Shown here: positions 37,701-41,923 of the stretch, piece by piece
Numbering within the stretch: position 1 is the stretch's first letter
How the letters are laid out: each line of letters begins with the position of its first letter
Virus record (IMG/VR): IMGVR_UViG_3300046755_000360
Location: 1-41,923 of that record
Length of the DNA: 41,923 bases
DNA from: a virus
Strand: one strand, 5' to 3'
Position numbers and translations under genes: made by a program
Notes under the pieces: generated by a model
The model's input: only the letters and a program-made list of their open reading frames with translations
The model's database searches: none
Told to the model about the DNA's origin: nothing

Positions 37701-38689
37701 TGACACATCCTCAAATCGTTGTCACCGTCGACGGGGTTCCGGTGTCCGGGCCCTTCTTTGAGCGGCTGGTGAGCCTGACCATCACTGATCGGGAGGGCAT
37801 CCAGTCGGACACCTTGGAGATGACCTTTAACGACGCGCCGCCGCATTTCCAGTCACCGCGCCGCGGGGCCGTTGTGTCTGCCACGATATTAAACGGCGCA
37901 ATCGGGGCGTTTGTCGGCTCCTACATTGTCGATCGAGTGGAGTTCGCTTGCCTGCCCTACACGATCACGGTCAGGGGGCATTCTGCCGATCTTCGCTCAG
38001 CGATGAAGGCGAGCAAAACCAAGCACTGGGATGGCGTTTCAGTAAAAAGCATCGTCGAGGAAAAGGCCGGCGACTACGGCCTGGAGGCTAAGGTATCCGA
38101 TGTTGTTTCAGGGCACGTCTATGAGTGGATTGCTCAGCAAGATGAATCGGACCTGAACTTTCTAGAGCGCCTCGCGCGCCGTCATGGCGCCCTGTTCACG
38201 ATCAAGAACGGCACCCTCCTCTGGCTGGAACGCGGCGCGGGAAAAACAGCAGACGGAACCGCCATCCCCCCGACGATCGTGCTTGCGCCAGCGGTGATCG
38301 AAGGATCATGCCGCCTGTCCGAAACTGATGTCGATCGGTTCAAGACGGTCAAGGCTTATTGGCAAGACCGGAAGGGAGCAAAACGTCAGGAGATCACCGT
38401 CGAAGCAGACCCCGAGGCGGGTGGAGAGCATGTACTCCGCGACCCCTACAGCTCGAAAGAAGAGGCGACATCCGCAGCCAAGGCGGCCGCACGAGAAATG
38501 ATGCGCGGGCTTATCGAAACCCAGTGCTCGATCGTTGGCCGCCCCGCCCTCATGGCGGGGCAGCCGCTCGTCTACGCCGGTGTGCGCCCGCTGGTCGATG
38601 GTCGGGAATTCATTCTCGATCGTGTCACACACTCCTTCACGAAGTCTGGCGGTTTGCGCACCGCATTTACGGGGAAAGCTAAAGTATGA
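37700..38689 (+). CDS. Tail hub/late control protein gpD
   Basis: 329-residue P2 gpD family hub protein that connects the tube to the spike. Recognisable segments: VSLTITDREGIQSDTLEMTFND, GAFVGSYIVDRVEFACLPYTITVRGHSADLRSAMKASKTKHWDGVSVKSIVEE, ESDLNFLERLARRHGALF, and C-terminal FILDRVTHSFTKSGGLRTAF. ATG 37700 overlaps the gpX stop (TAATG). The stop overlaps the next gene by ATGA. Confidence 0.93.
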   Translation: MTHPQIVVTVDGVPVSGPFFERLVSLTITDREGIQSDTLEMTFNDAPPHFQSPRRGAVVSATILNGAIGAFVGSYIVDRVEFACLPYTITVRGHSADLRSAMKASKTKHWDGVSVKSIVEEKAGDYGLEAKVSDVVSGHVYEWIAQQDESDLNFLERLARRHGALFTIKNGTLLWLERGAGKTADGTAIPPTIVLAPAVIEGSCRLSETDVDRFKTVKAYWQDRKGAKRQEITVEADPEAGGEHVLRDPYSSKEEATSAAKAAAREMMRGLIETQCSIVGRPALMAGQPLVYAGVRPLVDGREFILDRVTHSFTKSGGLRTAFTGKAKV

Positions 38690-39291
38690 ATGAAAAGACG
38701 AAGACGAAGGCGCGTGAACGTGCAGAGTCAGCGTTTCTTTGGTGGCGCATCATCGCCACCGCCTGTGGCGTTGCAGCTGCGCTATGGGTTCAATTGATCG
38801 GCCCCGGGGTGCAGGAATGGATCCGTGAGTTTTCCGGTCAAAACGAGATGCGCCGCGACTTCAATAACCAGTTCAGCGGCATGTCTGAGCGGCTGGAATA
38901 TATCGAACGTGTTCTGCCGGCGCCGCCGGTGGTCGACTGGATACCCGAAGCATCTTTCCAGGTCGGCGCGTGCACCTCTCGGCGTTGCGTTTACCGCTTG
39001 GTCGGCTCTCGAACTGAGTTCGGCGAAAACTGCGGACGTCCCCGCGAAGTAGAGGTCTTCTTACGGTTATCAAGCGGGCGTCAGCTGCGCATAGGCTATA
39101 GCGGAGATTTTCGACCTGTGGAGCTGGGCCGCACCCCGCAAGAGTTTGATGTCCCGCTCAATCTTCCACCCCTAATTGCTGAGGGCGAATACTACTGGCG
39201 CAGTCGTGCTGTTTACCCTGAGTGCACTGGCCCCCGAGAGCCTATCCCAAGATTCTCGCCATGGTGGCCCTTGAACGTAAGCCGCGGCTGA
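38686..39291 (+). CDS. Membrane-anchored protein at start of lysis cluster
   Basis: 201 residues. A basic N-terminus (KTKTKARERAES) precedes one transmembrane helix (WWRIIATACGVAAALWVQLIGP), then a short coiled-coil part (MRRDFNNQFSGMSERLEYIERVL) and a beta-rich domain with cysteines, probably periplasmic (N-in, C-out). Coupled to gpD by ATGA. Not a recognised holin; possibly involved in lysis or host envelope modification. Confidence 0.65.
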   Translation: MNEKTKTKARERAESAFLWWRIIATACGVAAALWVQLIGPGVQEWIREFSGQNEMRRDFNNQFSGMSERLEYIERVLPAPPVVDWIPEASFQVGACTSRRCVYRLVGSRTEFGENCGRPREVEVFLRLSSGRQLRIGYSGDFRPVELGRTPQEFDVPLNLPPLIAEGEYYWRSRAVYPECTGPREPIPRFSPWWPLNVSRG

Positions 39292-39360
39292 AAACCAGAT
39301 CACTGAAAACTCAACCACTACACCCCGCCTGCGGGGCCTTTGAACATGGAAGGATCGAAC

Positions 39361-40224
39361 ATGAACCTCATAGACAACTGGCGGCGGATCGCCTTTCGAA
39401 GCTATTCGATGTGGAGCCTGTACCTTGGCCTCCTCGCCCTCTTGGGCAGCGAAATCCTCTACGGGTTTTTCGGCATCGAGGCGGACCCCTACCCGCTTGG
39501 CAAGGCCGCTCTTGCGTTCTTCATTATCGGCATCTTCGGGCGCTTGATCCGGCAGGATGCGCAAAGCGTTGTTTTCCGCCGAGGCCTGTTCCTCACAGCC
39601 TTTGCCTACGGTTTGGTGATGTTGTTCCAATCGCTGGGCGGTGCGGTCATCGAGGACCGACAGGTGCCGGAGTATCGCCATGAAGTCCGCATTGAACAGC
39701 GCGCCTTAATCATCCCGGCGATGGCCGGGGCCCCTGCGAAGCTGGTCAAGGCCGGGGGTGTCGCACCCGAAGGCAAGTTCTTGGCGCTCGCCGTGCCGTT
39801 TATTGGCGAGTGGGAGGGCTTGCGGCTGGTGGCCTACAAGGATGTTGTCGGCGTCTGGACAGTCTGCTTTGGGGAGACGAAGGGCGTGCGGCCCGGTGAC
39901 CGCTACACCGTAGCAGAGTGCGAAGCCATTCTCGCCCGCGAGATACTGAGCTACAGGCAAGGTCTGCACCGCTACTTCACCCCATCGACCTTGTCCGATC
40001 GGCTTCCCGCCAAGCGTGATGTGGCCTATGTCAGCCTTGCCTACAATGTCGGCGTGTCGCGGGCCGGGACGGCCACGGCGACCAAGCGTCTGAATGCGGG
40101 TGATGTGCCGGGCGGCTGCGAAGCGCTGACCTGGTACAATAAGGCGGGCGGCCGCGTATGGCGCGGCCTTGTGCGGCGCCGCTCTGCTGAGAAAGTGTTC
40201 TGTATGGCCGGGGTGATCGCATGA
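39361..40224 (+). CDS. Holin-like/GH24 lysozyme fusion endolysin
   Basis: 287-residue fusion. Residues 1-100 contain three predicted membrane helices (about 17-37, 48-64, 74-94) and begin MNLIDNWRRIAFRSYSMW, resembling DUF7940 holin-like proteins. Residues 140-287 are a phage T4-type lysozyme (GH24) with the triad E152-x8-D161-x5-T167 in WEGLRLVAYKDVVGVWT. Charge distribution (RR before TM1, RLIRQ and RR between TM2 and TM3) predicts N-inside and the lysozyme outside. AAGGA six bases before ATG 39361 fixes the start. A hairpin CCCCG-CCTG-CGGGG lies 25-40 bp upstream. Confidence 0.9.
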   Translation: MNLIDNWRRIAFRSYSMWSLYLGLLALLGSEILYGFFGIEADPYPLGKAALAFFIIGIFGRLIRQDAQSVVFRRGLFLTAFAYGLVMLFQSLGGAVIEDRQVPEYRHEVRIEQRALIIPAMAGAPAKLVKAGGVAPEGKFLALAVPFIGEWEGLRLVAYKDVVGVWTVCFGETKGVRPGDRYTVAECEAILAREILSYRQGLHRYFTPSTLSDRLPAKRDVAYVSLAYNVGVSRAGTATATKRLNAGDVPGGCEALTWYNKAGGRVWRGLVRRRSAEKVFCMAGVIA

Positions 40225-40505
40225 TCTACGAGCTCGTAACAATTCTCGCCTTGTTCGCGGTCCAAATTGCAGACGTTTGGACAACCAATCAAATTCTTGC
40301 CCGCGGCGGCCGTGAGCTGAACCCGATCATGAAGTGGATCATGGATAAGACCGGCGATCAGTGGTCGGTGGTGAAGGTGGCGGCCGCGCTGATCGTATCC
40401 GCTTTCCTTTGGGCCGATGGGAATATCTCGGCCGTCTGGATCATCACCGCGATCACGGGGCTCGTTGCCCTGAACAACTATCGGGTTTTGCGAGGCATGA
40501 GATGA
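40221..40505 (+). CDS. DUF5658 membrane protein (holin candidate)
   Basis: 94-residue protein with three membrane helices (3-20, 49-66, 69-84) and the DUF5658 signature ADVWTTNQILARGGRELNPIM. It lies between the endolysin and spanin genes with ATGA junctions on both sides, so it is a holin or antiholin candidate; the family's function is not established. Confidence 0.75.
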   Translation: MIYELVTILALFAVQIADVWTTNQILARGGRELNPIMKWIMDKTGDQWSVVKVAAALIVSAFLWADGNISAVWIITAITGLVALNNYRVLRGMR

Positions 40506-40789
40506 TCGGGGCAGCCCTGATTTCTCGCCTTGCGCCCTACCTGGTCGCCGCCGCACTGGCCGGTGGCGGCGTCTGGTGGGTCATGGGCCTCAGAGAAGAG
40601 AACGCCGCCCTACGGTCCGATGTTGACCGACTGACAAGGGTGCTGGCCGGATGCACGGCCCGCGCAAACAACCTCATAGAGGACAGTGAAAGCGATGCCA
40701 AAGTCGATAACATGCCTGATCTTCGTGCCGTTCCTGATGAGTGGCTGTTCGTGGTTCCTGACACCCCCGGCCCCTCCACCATTTATTGA
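40502..40789 (+). CDS. Inner-membrane spanin (Rz-like)
   Basis: 95-residue protein with a single N-terminal membrane anchor (YLVAAALAGGGVWWVMGL) followed by a coiled coil (REENAALRSDVDRLTRVL) in the periplasm. Together with the overlapping lipoprotein gene it matches the Rz/Rz1 two-component spanin that fuses inner and outer membranes at lysis. Confidence 0.82.
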   Translation: MIGAALISRLAPYLVAAALAGGGVWWVMGLREENAALRSDVDRLTRVLAGCTARANNLIEDSESDAKVDNMPDLRAVPDEWLFVVPDTPGPSTIY

Positions 40790-40937
40790 GACCGCGTTTT
40801 GTGACGTCGAAGAGAAGCGCCGGTTCACTCGCGAGGAGATCGATTGGCGCGCGAAGAACGCGCCTTGGAATCTGAGGCGGGATTACAAGACCAACCTGAC
40901 CTTCGAGCGAGAGTGCGAGGATGAAGCGGCTAAGTGA
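40695..40937 (+). CDS. Outer-membrane spanin lipoprotein (Rz1-like)
   Basis: 80-residue lipoprotein: signal MPKSITCLIFVPFLMSGC with lipobox LMSGC, then the proline-rich TPPAPPPF typical of Rz1. It starts inside the i-spanin gene in the +1 frame and continues past it by 148 bp. GTG 40686 is an alternative start. Longer than lambda Rz1, with an acidic/basic tail (KRRFTREEIDWRAKN). Confidence 0.85.
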   Translation: MPKSITCLIFVPFLMSGCSWFLTPPAPPPFIETAFCDVEEKRRFTREEIDWRAKNAPWNLRRDYKTNLTFERECEDEAAK

Positions 40938-41058: not shown

Positions 41059-41235
41059 ATGTGTAAGAATGATCGACACAATCATGAAGCTAGCGACCGC
41101 ACCCGGTCGGACGACGCCTGTGACGCGGCGAACAAGCTTTTTGATGCTATATTTCAGGACGATACGTTGGAAAAGTCAGTAAAAAGAGATCATTCAGATG
41201 GCGCATTCCGAGGAAAAAAACCTTTCCGTTTATGA
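41059..41235 (+). CDS. Small hypothetical protein at right end
   Basis: 58-residue frame (MCKNDRHNHEASDRTRSDDACDAANKLFDAIFQDD...). It follows the promoter closely with no visible ribosome site (possibly leaderless) and overlaps the next gene by 37 bp. No family; may be a short regulatory or leader gene. Confidence 0.4.
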   Translation: MCKNDRHNHEASDRTRSDDACDAANKLFDAIFQDDTLEKSVKRDHSDGAFRGKKPFRL

Positions 41236-41923
41236 GTTTATTTATGTCGACTGGAGGCGCGTTGCTAGTCTGATCGCTCAAATGGACCCGAACGGGGTCA
41301 TGACGGCGTTAGAGACCACATCAGCTCGCGACAAAGCCGTTTCACTAGATCTAGAAACCGCAGGTGAAGCGGGGATACCTTTGGTCAAAAAAGGTTCTCT
41401 GGGCGCAACCCTGCAAGGTCAAGCTGGCTATGCGGCCTCGGTTAATAAGAGCTTTGACGCATCCGACATCGCTCCGCAGACGCTACTCTCACTACTTGAC
41501 CATAGAGGAATGATCTTCCGAGATGCCAGCAAAGGAACATTTGGGTCAATTGCATTGATGCGGGGTAACTTGCACATACTGGATTTGGGCATGATTTCTG
41601 AAAGTTGGCATCAATTCGAAAGCGAAGGCGAGCAAGGATTCGGTGCAGTGGCGGGCAAACTCTTCGACGATCCAGTCGCACTCCTATTCGGGGCCGGGAA
41701 AAAGACTTGGTCTCCCTTCAAGCGAGAGTATTGGCAATTGGGCGCTTCCAGTATCCTCACGCACGGTCACCATATCGCTGGAAAATGGAGTATCTTGGGG
41801 GTGATTTCGAAAATGCCCGAAGCCAAGTCTTCCAATTCAAAAGCTAATAGTTTTCCCGACGGACACCGTATCCCTACTATGCTTGAGGGAATGGATGAAC
41901 TTAAACAGGAAGTGGGTTGTCCG
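41199..41923 (+). CDS. Partial protein at right edge (possible DUF6414-like)
   Basis: Open frame of 241 codons that leaves the window without a stop. It begins MAHSEEKNLSVYEFIYVDWRRVASLIAQMDPNGV, whose 'YxFIYxD...V.S...AQ' opening resembles the DUF6414 group found in some accessory loci; this similarity is by eye and weak. The codon use has more A/T at third positions than the phage late genes. AAGAGA precedes the start. Either phage cargo or flanking host DNA. Confidence 0.55.

Follow-up and report, generated by a model that had tools for sequence, protein, structure and literature searches.

Holins and endolysins are normally separate proteins, so that lysis can be timed. A natural holin-endolysin fusion, TpeE, has been recorded in Clostridium sporogenes (PMC9527704), and the Enc34, M4Lys and Siskin (chivirus) endolysins carry a membrane domain, for which holin-independent lysis has been suggested (PMC8943055). 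Lys44 of phage fOg44 is an endolysin with a cleavable signal peptide that is exported by the Sec machinery and stays inactive until depolarisation (PMC6116005).

Here we analyze a window of 41,923 bases, positions 1 to 41,923 of the virus record IMGVR_UViG_3300046755_000360, which it covers in full. The window encodes an integrase, terminase, portal, ClpP-like protease, baseplate, sheath and tape-measure protein, and its source is, judging from this gene content, a temperate, contractile-tailed phage. The best match of the terminase is in phage phi2LM21, the lysis region of which differs from that of the window. The last ORF (41198-41923) extends past the window end and weakly matches DUF6414.

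The lysis gene of this phage encodes a single chain of 287 amino acids. We consider it reasonably probable that this chain joins a pinholin-like DUF7940 module with two helices to an exported endolysin (SAR or signal-peptide type). The gene and its leader comprise the following features:

39323..39336, + strand: short G+C hairpin CCCCGC-CT-GCGGGG read from the sequence, directly 5' of the endolysin ribosome-binding site (retained in contig L001 with an altered loop)
39348..39354, + strand: Shine-Dalgarno-like GGAAGGA, about 6 nt 5' of the ATG, identical in L001
39361..40224, + strand: fusion of DUF7940, helix 3 and GH24 endolysin, 287 aa plus stop (ORF, Pfam, alignment, AlphaFold2)
39367..39555, + strand: DUF7940 module, residues 3-65, helices 1 and 2, holin-like (Pfam, weak phrog_1356 match, low dN/dS)
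39403..39471, + strand: predicted transmembrane helix 1, residues 15-37 (AlphaFold2, hydropathy)
39487..39546, + strand: predicted transmembrane helix 2, residues 43-62 (AlphaFold2, hydropathy)
39568..39645, + strand: predicted helix 3, residues 70-95, matching the N-terminal export signal of split relatives (AlphaFold2, hydropathy, charges)
39646..39768, + strand: flexible linker, residues 96-136 (pLDDT mostly under 60, relaxed constraint)
39769..40221, + strand: GH24 muramidase domain with triad E152/D161/T167 and Cys169/187/253/281 (Pfam, alignment, AlphaFold2, PDB matches)

A previous reading of this DNA from the letters alone (the sequence-only reading) had named a missed stop or frameshift between the domains as a threat to the fusion. 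The frame is open from ATG to TGA, with no internal stop and no frameshift, another virus contig carries an intact copy of the protein that is 94% identical, and 48 fused proteins can be aligned; a missed stop or frameshift was rejected accordingly. An internal start yielding free lysozyme was rejected as well: the window has only a TTG at codon 62, and in the homologues the start codons within this stretch are scattered, with no common place.

Genomes and viral contigs were scanned with an alignment of fused sequences, which led to a set of 48 aligned proteins. Apart from the window protein and its 94% identical copy, this set comprises 46 fused homologues, most of them from (pro)phages of Rhodobacterales and Rhizobiales. 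Because fused sequences had guided the first scans, fused forms are over-represented in the set. All 48 proteins match lysozyme, 33 match DUF7940 (E 0.01) and 16 weakly match phrog_1356. Full-length fused matches were detected in 8 of 150 genomes from the Salipiger order and 3 of 150 from the Mesorhizobium order, and a phylum-wide draw yielded the full-length fusion in 2 of 299 genomes (G001 and G006, which the Salipiger-order set also contains); these counts include the centre genomes. In all, dozens of alphaproteobacterial viruses and prophages carry this fusion. In four loci (L040, L041, L042 and L086), the DUF7940 half appears broken or frameshifted while the lysozyme is still open.

Comparison of the window with the 94% copy gave dN/dS of 0.05 for DUF7940, 0.055 around helix 3, 0.45 for the linker (computed over residues 97-140) and 0.04 for the lysozyme, indicating that both halves are under purifying selection and that the linker is relaxed. 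The near-identical copy, the 46 further fused homologues and the low dN/dS in both halves together indicate that the fusion of DUF7940 and endolysin is real, conserved and selected, not an accident of one genome.

In the enzymatic half, Phage_lysozyme covers residues 150-277 (117 bits, cutoff 22.3), and the intact E-D-T triad noted in the sequence-only reading is borne out, with the usual spacing E152-8aa-D161-5aa-T167 conserved in the homologues. Cys169, 187, 253 and 281 lie at positions common to R21; the sequence supports a disulfide-capable, active-looking muramidase. The lysozyme domain also matches, below the cutoff, the Bartonella gene transfer agent endolysin BgtA and SpmX models. Matches of the whole structural model to chimeras of GPCRs with T4 lysozyme were dismissed as an artefact of helices plus lysozyme.

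The nearest solved structures of the lysozyme domain in the PDB are the SAR endolysins DLP12 RrrD and R21, as would be expected if the protein were an ordinary SAR endolysin with a functionless extra membrane sequence at its N-terminus. We regard this as highly improbable, given that the two extra helices are conserved across many lineages and under purifying selection, and that about 57 residues separate the end of helix 3 from E152, whereas SAR endolysins have one weakly hydrophobic N-terminal helix adjoining the catalytic domain.

A search of the phage collection with residues 1-115 (tblastn) gave no match even at E 0.1, so the N-terminal half was traced through profiles and neighbour genes. 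DUF7940 was detected at residues 3-65 with 34.0 bits, above the Pfam gathering cutoff of 27, and the same half weakly matches phrog_1356 (E 0.0067), a family labelled 'holin', a label that is an annotation and not proof of holin function. In the open-access literature, where absence is a weak sign, no paper naming DUF7940 or DUF5658 was found. The AlphaFold2 model, built on the 48-sequence alignment, comprises helices at residues 15-37, 43-62 and 70-95, a low-confidence linker and a well-modelled lysozyme (137-281). Of the claim that three helices of DUF7940 type precede the enzyme, the number of membrane helices holds, but DUF7940 spans helices 1 and 2 only, and helix 3 lies outside the match. 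Helices 1 and 2 form a hydrophobic pair with positive ends inside according to the charge sums and the AlphaFold2 model, as in two-helix pinholins, with the third helix following in the fusion.

Summed over the 48 homologues, the charges are +83 before helix 1, -47 between helices 1 and 2, +66 between helices 2 and 3, and -37 after helix 3. This positive-inside pattern supports a topology in which the N-terminus is inside and the lysozyme is in the periplasm, where the sequence-only reading had also placed it. A cytoplasmic lysozyme is disfavoured both by the charges and by the relatives in which the two modules are separate genes, where the same enzyme is exported via its own signal sequences.

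Separate homologues of both halves, envisaged in the sequence-only reading, do exist: in such split cassettes, a DUF7940 gene stands beside an independent endolysin. On plasmids of Sulfitobacter and Rhizobium, and in phages of Rhizobium and Sinorhizobium, the gene immediately 5' of the endolysin encodes a standalone DUF7940 protein (70-84 aa, two helices) and overlaps or adjoins the endolysin gene, the product of which has a SAR-like start. Most of the standalone proteins match the holin family phrog_1356 (best 2e-12). Split members also occur inside the fused clade (L059, L060, L072, L079, L081, L083, L084 and L088); here, the DUF7940 gene ends 4-8 nt inside the endolysin gene, and the endolysin starts with its own signal or anchor where helix 3 would be, as in L072 (MRKALLAALACMVAFFAPVLA/QP). 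A different type of fusion was observed in L006 (2210-2926), where DUF7940 continues into a SAR-like helix that abuts the catalytic domain.

A tree of the lysozyme domain, from which L084 was left out because it is cut by a contig end, requires 8 changes between the fused and split states, a count to which a few long-branch split outliers add; at least 7 are forced by well-supported branches, and the tree does not settle the direction of each change. These changes, along with the signals or anchors of the split endolysins, argue that helix 3 belongs to the endolysin and that DUF7940 is a separable partner. Helix 3 thus corresponds, by position, to the endolysin's own export helix. The contrast drawn in the sequence-only reading with one-helix SAR endolysins therefore stands as to the number of helices, but the gap is smaller than claimed.

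Helix 3 could also be a cleavable signal sequence. Signal peptidase would then free the lysozyme early, the DUF7940 hairpin would remain as a holin of its own, and the gene would encode two products in one processed chain; this would be compatible with our preferred reading. Secreted endolysin of fOg44 provides a precedent (PMC6116005), and the split relatives L072 and L059 have endolysins with ordinary-looking signal peptides. An [AVST]-x-A motif follows helix 3 in 79% of the 48 homologues and in 73% of 30 non-redundant ones, compared with 10% and 4% of homologues after helices 1 and 2. Much of this excess, however, reflects alanine richness: the shuffled expectation is 62% (58% in the non-redundant set, where 63 of 2000 shuffles reach the observed frequency). 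Furthermore, the window shows only GGA here, with no strict signal-peptidase motif, and its nearest relatives likewise only GGA or GEA. On balance, we find early cleavage unlikely; the lack of a clear signal-peptidase site after helix 3 in the window also counts against our preferred reading as regards how the enzyme would become active.

The genes around the fusion bear on which protein times lysis:

38686..39291, + strand: 201-aa protein with one predicted helix, a possible lysis-related neighbour (sequence)
40221..40505, + strand: DUF5658 small membrane protein, candidate holin or antiholin, its start overlapping the endolysin stop (ATGA; Pfam 37.6 bits, hydropathy)
40502..40789, + strand: putative i-spanin, Rz-like, with an N-terminal membrane helix followed by a polar stem (by anatomy, no family match)
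40695..40937, + strand: putative o-spanin, an Rz1-like lipoprotein (lipobox LMSGC) whose gene starts inside the i-spanin gene in a different frame (by anatomy)

The product of 38686-39291, which has no family match and no match in the phage collection, is a candidate lysis regulator. Proteins of comparable length, also with one helix, precede the endolysin in L060 and L064. At about 4000-4530 of L001, a terminase-like gene runs into the tail of a gene of this type, in a mosaic or chimeric contig.

The DUF7940 module and helix 3 might serve only to anchor and export the lysozyme, with a separate holin, either the DUF5658 protein or an upstream one-helix protein, timing lysis. In the window, L001, L018, L051, L005, L065, L066 and L068, a DUF5658 gene lies between the endolysin, the stop of which it overlaps, and the spanins; both its position in the window and the potential of the upstream one-helix proteins to act in lysis weigh against a pinholin-like role of the fused module. 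These eight loci, the only ones in which DUF5658 was seen, are, however, a minority of the fused cassettes, most of which contain neither DUF5658 nor another nearby small gene with at least two helices. Among 40 fused loci flanked by 2 kb or more in both directions, about 27 have no other such gene within 2-3 kb, a hydropathy-based count that is no proof of holin absence; in many fused loci, a one-helix, spanin-like gene lies directly 3' of the fused gene. Moreover, DUF7940 genes fill the holin position in the split relatives, and the holin-family match belongs to DUF7940, not to DUF5658. We therefore hold a purely anchoring role to be rather doubtful. The union of holin-like and muralytic functions proposed in the sequence-only reading is upheld to the extent that one polypeptide carries both halves and that the holin-like character of the DUF7940 half is supported by the standalone proteins, which mostly match phrog_1356 and precede the endolysin; the dual function itself is less certain, as a separate DUF5658 protein could be the holin.

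Under the preferred reading, the host Sec machinery would insert the protein with its N-terminus inside. Helices 1 and 2 would form the DUF7940 hairpin, and helix 3, the endolysin export helix, would carry the disulfide-capable muramidase into the periplasm on the flexible linker, both steps being supported by topology and homology. During virion maturation, the muramidase would stay at the inner membrane, inactive or unable to reach the wall; inactivity until depolarisation is inferred as for exported endolysins generally (PMC6116005). Lysis would set in with depolarisation of the membrane, most likely by the DUF7940 module and possibly with the DUF5658 neighbour. The enzyme might then attack the wall from its tether, or be released first by a proteolytic cut in the linker or after helix 3; completing the disruption of the outer membrane would fall to Rz/Rz1. 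A bolder version, which we advance tentatively and with less confidence than the modular reading itself, is that one polypeptide acts as both timer and effector, the DUF7940 hairpin depolarising the membrane and activating its own muramidase in cis, and that the modules were repeatedly fused and split without loss of function.

A conserved fusion in phages of Gram-negative bacteria that also exists naturally in split form allows direct tests of whether two proteins are required for timing, whether a tethered muramidase can lyse and whether DUF7940 is a pinholin. In the latter case, a Pfam family now without a function would gain one.

Among known systems, the pinholin S21 with the SAR endolysin R21 of phage 21 (as well as the HP1 and phiKMV cassettes) resembles the fusion in combining a small two-helix holin with an exported GH24 lysozyme with an E-8-D-5-T triad, but consists of two genes, with a single SAR helix adjoining the enzyme, whereas the fusion has three helices and a long linker in a single chain. 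The split alphaproteobacterial cassettes (L008, L010, L011, L012, L013, L081 and L072) have the same modules in the same order, in genes that overlap or adjoin and are often followed by spanin-like genes, but yield two proteins. Lys44 of fOg44 resembles the split members L072 and L059 and lacks a fused holin module (PMC6116005). TpeE shares with the window protein the arrangement of an N-terminal holin and a C-terminal endolysin in one polypeptide; its TpeE/BhlA-type holin, however, has one helix plus an amphipathic helix, its host is Gram-positive and flipping from the cytoplasm to the outside has been proposed (PMC9527704), whereas the window protein has a two-helix DUF7940 hairpin plus helix 3. 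The Enc34, M4Lys and Siskin endolysins likewise join a muralytic enzyme and a membrane domain in one protein, but the membrane domain is C-terminal, and the Enc34 enzyme belongs to another family (PHA02564) (PMC8943055), whereas in the window protein the membrane part is N-terminal and the enzyme is GH24. The fusion is a conserved variant of known lysis systems.
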